A DNA stretch of 64,000 bases from Rhodoferax sp. (lineage in GTDB: Bacteria > Pseudomonadota > Gammaproteobacteria > Burkholderiales > Burkholderiaceae_C). The translations under genes and the position numbers were made by a program. Under the pieces are notes generated by a model. That model was not told where the DNA came from, searched no databases, and worked only from the letters and a program-made list of their open reading frames with translations. Within the stretch, counting starts at the first letter, position 1. Every line of letters starts with the position of its first letter. The stretch is taken from contig JARLJH010000048.1 of NCBI GenBank assembly GCA_031291305.1, forward strand, positions 248,001 through 312,000, written 5' to 3'. This document shows positions 10,120 to 11,713 of this stretch, piece after piece.

Positions 10120-10478
10120 CCGCGCTCTATGCTGCCCTGGCCGCGTTGGGATACCTGTGGGCCTTTTGGTATCTGTACGTGCTGGTGATGGCGTTCTACC
10201 GGGCCAGCCTGGCCGGGCGATTGACCGGCGTTGCAAAGTGGCTGGCTTACCCGGTGGTGCTTGTCGCCATCGCGGTGGACCTGATCGCCAACTGGACGAT
10301 TGCCACGGTCTGGTTTTGGCAGTGGCCGACCGTCGCGTGGGGTCGCCCCGATCTTGTGACCTCTCGCCTGTCCAGATACATCGCTGGCCCAGATGGCTGG
10401 CGCAAAGATCAAGCGACTTGGTTGTGCCACAACTTGCTGGATTATTTCGATCCGAGTGGGCTGCATTGCAAGAATTAG
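10116..10478 (+). CDS. Small prophage membrane protein
   Basis: 120 residues with a GTG start in a GTGA overlap. Two hydrophobic, Trp/Tyr-rich helices are visible (about residues 3-30 and 44-72), followed by a soluble tail with aromatic residues (TWLCHNLLDYFDPSG) and two cysteines. No enzyme motif is seen. It lies at the end of the tail-fibre gene group and before com. Lysis, superinfection exclusion or fibre-related roles are all possible; I do not recognise the family. Confidence 0.6.
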   Translation: MTALYAALAALGYLWAFWYLYVLVMAFYRASLAGRLTGVAKWLAYPVVLVAIAVDLIANWTIATVWFWQWPTVAWGRPDLVTSRLSRYIAGPDGWRKDQATWLCHNLLDYFDPSGLHCKN

Positions 10479-10603
10479 TTAAAACAGGGCGAGGGCCTGC
10501 GGTGCGTCAACACCTCAAGCCCCCGCCTCCGCCGTGAGTAAGCACGGCATTGACCGAAGACCCTGCCACCTGTACAGGTCAGGGCATTATGGAAGATGCC
10601 GAC

Positions 10604-10816
10604 ATGCAAGAAGTGAGATGTGGTGCCTGTGGCAAGCTGCTGGCCATTGGCGATTACAAAAGATTGCAGATAAAGTGCCCGCGCTGCCGGGCACTGAATG
10701 ACTTGAGGGCCGAGAGCCTCCAACCTGAACGCCCCAGAGCGTCATCAAAAAATGGATTGACTGATGACGACAGAACGAGAAACCCAGGCGACTTTCAACA
10801 GCGCCACCGTTCCTGA
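10604..10816 (+). CDS. com: Com-like zinc-ribbon translational regulator
   Basis: 70 residues from ATG 10604, close to the 62 of Mu Com. Two CxxC pairs form the zinc ribbon: CGACGK near the start and CPRC about 17 residues later, with the Com-like context MQEVRCGACGKLL and LQIKCPRCRALNDL. In Mu, Com binds the mom mRNA, opens a hairpin that hides the mom start and turns on translation of the DNA modification gene. Here com overlaps the following methyltransferase gene by 53 bases, as com overlaps mom in Mu. An in-frame ATG at 10589, preceded by AGGG, is an alternative start. Upstream, 10479-10603 holds no clear gene. Confidence 0.85.
   Translation: MQEVRCGACGKLLAIGDYKRLQIKCPRCRALNDLRAESLQPERPRASSKNGLTDDDRTRNPGDFQQRHRS
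10740..10769 (+). promoter_or_regulatory. Hairpin burying the methyltransferase start codon
   Basis: CGTCATCA (10740-10747) and TGATGACG (10762-10769) are a perfect 8-bp inverted repeat with a 14-base A-rich loop. The methyltransferase ATG (10764-10766) lies inside the 3' arm. It sits within com, upstream of and across the next start, as the translation-inhibitor stem-loop does in Mu com-mom. That Com opens it is inference from the Mu system. Confidence 0.6.
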
Positions 10817-11600
10817 CATGGATCAGGCCGCTCCGATGGTGCAGTGGGTAGGCGGAAAGCGCCGCCTGGCGCCGCACATCCTGCCGCTGTTTCCTGAACA
10901 CACCTGCTATGTGGAACCCTTTTGCGGCGCGGCCGCGTTGTTTTTCCTCAAATCGCCCGTGAAGGTCGAGGTGCTCAACGATGTGAACGGTGACCTGGTC
11001 ACCCTGTATCGCGTGGTGCAACATCACCTGGAGGAGTTTGTCAGGCACTTCAAGTGGGCGCTGGCAAGCCGGGAGGTTTACAAGTGGCTGCAGGCGACGC
11101 CTTCTGAGACGCTGACGGACATTCAAAGGGCCGCCAAGTTCTTTTACCTGCAGAAGCTGGGCTTCGGTGGGAAGGTGACCGGGCAGACCTTTGGCACTGG
11201 CACCACGCGTCCCGCTGGGTTGAATTTGCTGCGCCTTGAGGAGCATCTCAGCGCGGTTCATCTTCGTCTGCACCAGGTGTTTATCGAGCGGCTGGAGTGG
11301 TCGACCTGCGTCGAGCGCTATGACCGCCCACACAGCCTGTTCTATCTGGACCCGCCGTACTGGGGCACCGAGGGCTACGGTGTTGATTTTGGACTGGAGC
11401 AGTACGACCTGATGGCCCAGCTGATGGGCTCCATGAAGGGCAAGGCCGTGGTGAGTGTCAATGACATCCCAGAGATGCGCCAGACGTTCAAGGGCCACCA
11501 CATTAAACGGGTGAGCATTAGCTACACCGTAGGTGCTTCAGGTCGCGGTCGGGAGCCCAAAGGCGAGCTGATCATCAGCAACTTCAAACCAGGCGTTTGA
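10764..11600 (+). CDS. D12-class N6-adenine DNA methyltransferase
   Basis: 278 residues. The AdoMet-binding motif I region is WVGGKRRLAPHI followed by VEPFCGAAALFF, and catalytic motif IV is DPPYW in 'LFYLDPPYWGTEGYG'. This order and the length fit Dam-like alpha-group adenine methyltransferases. It replaces mom as the last gene of the prophage, next to its right end, and probably protects phage DNA from host restriction. The target sequence cannot be read from the protein. The start is the ATG at 10764 inside the hairpin; no good Shine-Dalgarno precedes it, which fits translation that needs activation. ATG 10818 is an alternative. Confidence 0.85.
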   Translation: MTTERETQATFNSATVPDMDQAAPMVQWVGGKRRLAPHILPLFPEHTCYVEPFCGAAALFFLKSPVKVEVLNDVNGDLVTLYRVVQHHLEEFVRHFKWALASREVYKWLQATPSETLTDIQRAAKFFYLQKLGFGGKVTGQTFGTGTTRPAGLNLLRLEEHLSAVHLRLHQVFIERLEWSTCVERYDRPHSLFYLDPPYWGTEGYGVDFGLEQYDLMAQLMGSMKGKAVVSVNDIPEMRQTFKGHHIKRVSISYTVGASGRGREPKGELIISNFKPGV

Positions 11601-11621: not shown

Positions 11622-11713
11622 ATGCTGGATCAAAGATGTGTCTGAAACGGCTGAAAATGCTGGATCAAATTAAACGTCTTCCCGGATCAAATTAAACGTC
11701 GCGCTACTTCCCA
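11622..11713. repeat. Prophage right end with transposase-site-like repeats
   Basis: GGATCAAATTAAACGTC occurs at 11662-11678 and again at 11684-11700, exactly 22 bp apart. A third partial copy, ATGCTGGATCAAA, is at 11622-11634 and matches 11657-11669. Read inward from 11713 on the minus strand, the sequence begins TGGGAAGTAGCGC, so the element would end in the 5'-TG expected of Mu-type transposable phages, with the first repeat 14 bases in. In Mu the MuA end sites R1 and R2 are also about 22 bp apart. The exact border (11700-11713) is inferred. Confidence 0.55.

Follow-up and report, generated by a model that had tools for sequence, protein, structure and literature searches.

The closest described system to the locus reported here is the com-mom switch of phage Mu, with its Com protein and its TIS, as described in PMC6483171, citing Hattman and Wulczyn & Kahmann; com-mom occurs in Mu and in relatives of Mu. 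The published recognition motif of Com is CC(N)2-3GAG, and in Mu the Com motifs partly overlay the TIS (PMC6483171). A SELEX experiment on Com yielded a bipartite motif, and a contradictory report, in which Com prefers an RNA duplex over a hairpin, is noted in the same paper (PMC6483171). Related gene pairs were annotated earlier as well, namely the Com-Dam pair of Pseudomonas phage B3 and the Com-methylase pair of Burkholderia phage KS5; the sections of PMC3091744 that name Com and the methylase of KS5 do not connect the two by an RNA switch.

The com locus in the window

The window, i.e. the whole 64,000-nucleotide stretch of Rhodoferax sp. DNA analysed, contains two overlapping genes on the forward strand:

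10604..10816, + strand, com, Com zinc-ribbon RNA-binding protein (start ATG 10604; ATG 10589 also possible)
10764..11600, + strand, Dam-like DNA adenine methyltransferase of the D12 class; the 3' arm of the stem described below contains its start codon

In profile searches the com product matched PF10122 (E 5.6e-16) and phrog_6417, 'translational regulator' (E 6.2e-21), and Cys 6, 9, 25 and 28 were invariant in an alignment of 24 Com proteins. The com gene ends at 10816, and its reading frame shares 53 bases with that of the methyltransferase. Both the Com-like gene and the 53-base overlap claimed in the original prediction were confirmed. The methyltransferase matched PF02086 with E 1e-24 and 88.1 bits (curated cut-off 22), not Mom (PF25680), in the profile search, and it matched phrog_56 with E 1.1e-90. 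Against the Dam family TIGR00571 it reached 111.1 bits, under the NCBI cut-off of 114.85, so that the label is kept at Dam-like and GATC specificity stays putative. PF10122 and PF02086 each gave one match in the whole genome of the window, both at the com locus.

Among the upstream neighbours of com are baseplate and tail genes; farther upstream come a DNA transposition protein and a phage transposase. The locus therefore probably represents the late end of a transposable prophage resembling Mu. Directly past the methyltransferase there are two exact copies of GGATCAAATTAAACGT, at 11662-11677 and 11684-11699 and 22 nt apart (with up to 2 mismatches allowed, 0.01 such pairs are expected by chance in the window). 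These copies are possibly transposase end sites at the right end of the prophage; a search for the repeat in two upstream stretches, looking for the left end, gave no copy. In Mu, mom is transcribed from a late promoter under the C protein, with control by Dam and OxyR, and the promoter carries a GATC cluster. A Mu-like promoter GATC cluster was considered here and rejected, the GATC positions inspected by eye in 8 loci showing no consistent pattern.

An inverted repeat over the methyltransferase start codon

Two features surround the start of the methyltransferase:

10740..10769, + strand, putative translation-inhibiting stem, 10740-10747 pairing with 10762-10769; the hairpin of the original prediction
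10754..10756, + strand, weak Shine-Dalgarno-like GGA, identified by eye, in the loop of the inhibiting stem; the G of column 26 is invariant in the clade alignment

The segments CGTCATCA (10740-10747) and TGATGACG (10762-10769) are perfect reverse complements separated by a loop of 14 bases, and the ATG at 10764-10766 lies inside the 3' arm, so the proposed repeat with perfect 8-bp arms is exact. The longest Shine-Dalgarno match ahead of this ATG comprises 3 bases, in agreement with the poor ribosome-binding site claimed. The stem appeared when the com-methyltransferase RNA was folded, as part of the predicted structure of 10700-10810; alone it folds with −8.3 kcal/mol. The predicted unpaired probability of the start codon in the free window RNA is 0.00.

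On its own, the inverted repeat is weak evidence and unremarkable. The window contains 33 perfect inverted repeats with arms of at least 8 and loops of 3-20 bases, vs 12-18 in five base shuffles, and the local fold of 10700-10810 has a z of −1.43, with 18 of 200 shuffles equally stable. What raises the repeat above chance is comparison, since 96.2% of the stem cells are paired in the 13 related loci that form the clade of the window. The case for a switch rests on comparison between loci.

Com-type hairpins at the end of com

Inside the end of com, just upstream of the start-hiding stem, there are two hairpins that carry the Com motif in their loops:

10707..10719, + strand, Com-type hairpin A, GGGC / loop CGAGA / GCCU, motif CC(N)2GAG
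10729..10742, + strand, Com-type hairpin B, ACGC / loop CCCAGA / GCGU, motif CC(N)3GAG, counterpart of the 19-mer Com site of Mu

The last three bases of B, 10740-10742, are the first three of the 5' arm of the stem. Since the bases are shared, the two structures compete and cannot form together. Imposing hairpin B on the window RNA raised the predicted unpaired probability of the start codon to 0.45, at a cost of about 5 kcal/mol. According to the original prediction Com acts on the start-hiding stem itself; the stem exists, but from its sequence motif the likely Com site is hairpin B, which overlaps the 5' arm, with hairpin A, absent from that prediction, as a second site.

Loci for comparison were collected by D12 protein similarity (the best 80 of 204 from genomes and the best 80 of 559 from viral contigs) and by Com similarity (14 regions from phage records and the best 80 of 524 viral contigs); a PF10122 search of 398 genomes gave a match in 26. 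Distinctness over 200 nt and a Com sequence pattern defined 133 Com loci, among which near-duplicates remain. The pattern requires seven open residues before the first Cys and misses some com genes, for example the real Com of L016. Hairpins were called by CC(N)2-3GAG with a stem of at least 3 pairs within 130 nt past the zinc ribbon. At least one such hairpin was found in 128 of the 133 loci, compared with 6.25 in base shuffles of the same stretches, and at least two in 81 (0.1 in shuffles). The five loci without a hairpin include L016 and L032, whose Com matches lie far from the methyltransferase and are probably false; they were left in the count.

Measured from the last Cys of the zinc ribbon, 90 of 98 A hairpins sit at +22 and 72 of 112 B hairpins at +44. 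Another 12 B hairpins at +65 make up a 21-nt insertion class, which holds many near kin of the window. The insertion lies in the loop of hairpin A (L001-L006, L078, L083, L085, L086, L088 and L261, kin of the window). A stem of its own is predicted for it, and the idea of a structured insertion was dropped for want of covariation support.

The pairing of both hairpins was evaluated in 49 loci picked by the loop motif at +22 and +44, blind to stem pairing. In this set 99.7% of the cells of the A and B stems are paired, both sides vary in 6 of the 8 pairs, and the covariation score was matched by 0 of 500 shuffles. Sliding the pairing partner by 1-3 columns lowered pairing to 5.6-58%. In one locus, L195, com stops 18 nt past the zinc ribbon and hairpin B is kept beyond the stop; the gene that follows is barely at the D12 cut-off (22.0 bits).

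Association of the hairpins with com

Among the loci from the D12 searches, the hairpin was present in 43 of 43 with an upstream Com vs 4 of 88 without. For this comparison L045 lacked the motif, and loci too near the contig start or with identical upstream DNA were left out (n = 131). The four Com-less hairpins comprise one identical pair (L028 and L037) and two typical hairpins (L032 and L059).

A covariance model of hairpins A and B, R1, gave 17 matches at E≤0.01 in 150 genomes of the order, nine of them below 0.001. All nine lie within com, and in each case a D12 protein begins after the match, as read from the sequence with a heuristic label; they include the window itself, and L287 and L298 repeat L010 and L016. 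In another of the nine, L300, com has an internal stop in the zinc ribbon, yet the hairpin positions are retained and a D12 reading frame starts after them. For the eight weak matches (E 0.0026-0.0086), scanning both strands with a relaxed pattern revealed no Com, and they look like chance. A second Com target elsewhere, as part of a regulon in trans, was also considered and discarded: R1 finds a single site in the whole genome of the window at E≤1. In 274 genomes of the class there was no match at E≤1e-4 besides the window's own genome. Among 24 chosen loci R1 matched 22 and missed those of Mu (L161) and Chuche (L169). Its matches outside the training loci include the N4/N6 methylase loci L167 and L174, the Mom loci L172 and L283 and the C5 locus L196 (E 2.4e-4). 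With Rfam 15, positions 10400-11000 of the window gave only two matches, both far under the gathering score, and there was no Rfam match in L161 (Mu), L162 (B3), L165 (AP3), L172 (JD024), L245 and L257.

Partner enzymes and position of their starts

Profile searches with the 76 partner proteins assigned 60 to PF02086, 12 to PF01555, 5 to Mom (PF25680) and 1 to the C5 family PF00145. The counts exceed 76, some proteins matching two families, and the share of D12 is inflated because a D12 query supplied part of the sample. The partners of Com are D12, N6/N4 and C5 methyltransferases as well as Mom. The suggestion that mom was exchanged for the methyltransferase is without support as to direction: D12 is the commonest partner (60 of 76, in this D12-biased sample), and B3 has a Com-Dam pair.

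Several partners are unusual. The C5-cytosine methyltransferase (PF00145; L196:1670-2575) follows Com at the usual distance. A partner of 486 aa (L253:1658-3115) has its D12 match confined to the first part, another (L219:1661-2671) combines a ParB-like segment (phrog_15396) with an N6/N4 methylase match, and one of the 76 matches HEAT repeats.

The annotated partner start lies 68-76 nt past the zinc ribbon in ten of 14 phage records (B3, Bise, AP3, Smp131, KS5, UMP151, JD024, PAN70, Carl1 and Mcat3), at 52 in Mu and at 55 in Chuche. For TJ1 the annotated start is at 148, which we think is too late, and in Komp_PAO1_1 a hypothetical reading frame of 49 aa starts at 70. For the locus comparisons below, the start codon taken was the one closest to +75 or +97.

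The start-codon stem across loci

Within the 13-locus clade of the window 6 of the 8 pairs of the stem are invariant, and the outer pair is broken in 3 loci. The apical pair alone covaries, being U-A in 7 loci, A-U in 5 and unpaired in 1. The best methyltransferase tree of 17 rows accounts for the apical 5' letter with 3 changes (3-4 in bootstraps); the well-supported branches of this tree force just one change. In L006 this pair is absent. The core of the stem is mostly under coding and start-codon constraint. The covariation check proposed for this stem thus found it kept throughout the clade, but with one covarying pair.

A register-free pairing test was applied to 63 loci under 80% identity, in which the start region was paired with the B region. 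With its own B region the start region reached a mean of −11.7 kcal/mol, vs −9.5 with the B regions of other loci (0 of 20000 permutations), and dinucleotide-shuffled start regions reached −8.8 kcal/mol with the B region (0 of 100). The own-versus-swapped result was the same at identity limits of 0.7, 0.6 and 0.55 (51, 21 and 15 loci; 0 of 20000 each). When hairpin A replaced B as a control, own pairing also beat the swaps, by less (4, 35 and 52 of 20000), so that part of the effect of the own B may come from composition or relatedness, or else A may pair as well. The B segment pairs with the start region at p>0.5 in 40 of the 63 loci, compared with a mean of 29.1 and a maximum of 40 in 12 dinucleotide shuffles. 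The start codons themselves have an unpaired probability of 0.26 vs 0.42 in shuffles, and are thus buried more deeply.

The picture is not uniform over the 63 loci. In 20 of them, B3, AP3 and JD024 included, hairpin B is predicted to fold unhindered and its segment to be unpaired with the start region; predicted openness of the start codon is 0.74 in B3 and 0.67 in AP3. In L227 the predicted pairing takes part of the Shine-Dalgarno sequence and leaves the AUG free. Imposing B over the 63 loci increased the exposure of the start codon in 33 and decreased it in 10.

Proposed switch and alternative explanations

We consider it likely that the com-methyltransferase transcript carries a translational switch operated by Com, akin to com-mom of Mu, with tandem hairpins and with a methyltransferase as its payload. 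In the modelled fold without Com, 10740-10747 would pair with 10762-10769, burying the AUG of the methyltransferase and exposing the weak GGA. Hairpins A and B would emerge first during transcription, and Com made from the same mRNA may bind their CC(N)2-3GAG loops, as the motif suggests. Com-bound B would then take 10740-10742, by which the stem is predicted to be excluded and the AUG freed, and the methyltransferase would be translated only once Com accumulates. The enzyme would probably appear late in the lytic cycle, presumably marking phage DNA before packaging. Given that B costs about 5 kcal/mol, Com would have to cover this from its binding or capture B while the 3' arm is still untranscribed; we favour the co-transcriptional option as the more natural one. 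The presence of two sites at a spacing of 22 nt suggests a pair of Com molecules, which may cooperate, and the published bipartite SELEX motif would fit such a model. The original prediction of the same switch with a Dam-like methyltransferase is supported in part, by the Com family, by the stem kept in the clade and by the covarying Com-motif hairpins alongside, but covariation of the stem itself is thin.

The strongest rival to this switch is that A and B are real Com sites and the 8-bp stem is incidental, Com for example recruiting the ribosome or keeping the RNA single-stranded. Covariation support is indeed far better for A and B than for the stem, and in 23 of the 63 loci the B segment does not pair with the start region at p>0.5, a measure for which the shuffle control is weak. 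An incidental stem would, however, leave aside that the clade keeps it in 13 of 13 loci bar single broken pairs, with a matched change at the apical pair, that own pairing differs significantly from swapped pairing at every identity limit, and that start codons are less exposed than in shuffles. We regard it as unlikely. Less probable still is a control by translational coupling that needs no Com protein, in which ribosomes translating com open the stem and start again on the methyltransferase. It draws on the overlap of com with its partner in 59 of the 63 loci, because of which ribosomes on com traverse the start region, and such coupling may contribute in part. Against it, the distance from the com stop to the partner start ranges from −52 to +119 (sd 27), whereas that from B to the start is tight (quartiles 29, 30 and 32, sd 3.8, narrowed by picking starts near +75 and +97). 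Coupling also leaves the covarying Com motif unexplained.

That selection acts on the Com tail (PER.RAS and similar) at the protein level, with the hairpins as a by-product, is very improbable. Hairpin A does occupy a single com frame in 95 of 98 cases, as a conserved peptide would have it, but B is found in all three frames relative to com (90, 17 and 5 hairpins) and persists past the early com stop of L195, which points to a constraint on the RNA rather than on the peptide; moreover, the stems vary with compensation.

Beyond the window, the data raise a more general reading, to which we give about an even chance. Tandem Com hairpins 22 nt apart would be a portable RNA operator placed ahead of D12, N6/N4, C5 and Mom enzymes, at which pairs of Com trap the hairpins before the inhibitory fold forms, Mu being a reduced member with a single hairpin. 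Titles and abstract openings of a mostly open-access literature, with the original Mu papers outside it, and Rfam contained no tandem element, covariation or sharing among four families of this kind. Should the comparison hold, Com and its two-hairpin RNA are a device by which phages in general postpone DNA modification, whatever the chemistry of the enzyme, and annotators could predict Com-controlled modification genes. The element would then give an exact, testable RNA target in terms of positions, motif and spacing.

Comparison with known systems

Like the window, the Mu com-mom system has a Com zinc-ribbon gene that overlaps the modification gene, and a CC(N)2-3GAG hairpin adjoining the start-codon stem, although the start is GUG in Mu and AUG in the window. 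Hairpin B of the window, CTGAACGCCCCAGAGCGTC, and the Mu site CTGAATGCCTGCGAGCATC (L161) are identical at 14 of 19 letters without gaps, and one difference is a compensating C-G/U-A pair. Of the features of the Mu type, the upstream overlapping Com and the Com motif hairpins beside the stem are found in the window, and the start-codon stem is present by sequence, predicted fold and clade conservation, with covariation at one pair. The systems differ in the payload, which is Mom in Mu and a D12 methyltransferase in the window, and in the number of Com hairpins, two in tandem in the window whereas only one was found in Mu, whose locus has no match to the tandem model R1 at E≤1. They also differ in the bases shared between B and the stem, 3 in the window and at most 1 in the predicted fold of Mu.

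Pseudomonas phage B3 (AF232233, ORF47-ORF48) likewise has an annotated Com followed by a Dam-type methylase, with both hairpins present, and the annotated stretch of its record lists no RNA element. It is unlike the window in that pairing that buries the start is not predicted (start unpaired 0.74). The Burkholderia phages KS5 and AP3 also have a Com gene and hairpin B, and AP3 has A too. Their annotated partner start is at +76, as in the window, but they are P2-like phages whose partner is annotated as an N4/N6 methylase, and in AP3, unlike in the window, no burial of the start is predicted.
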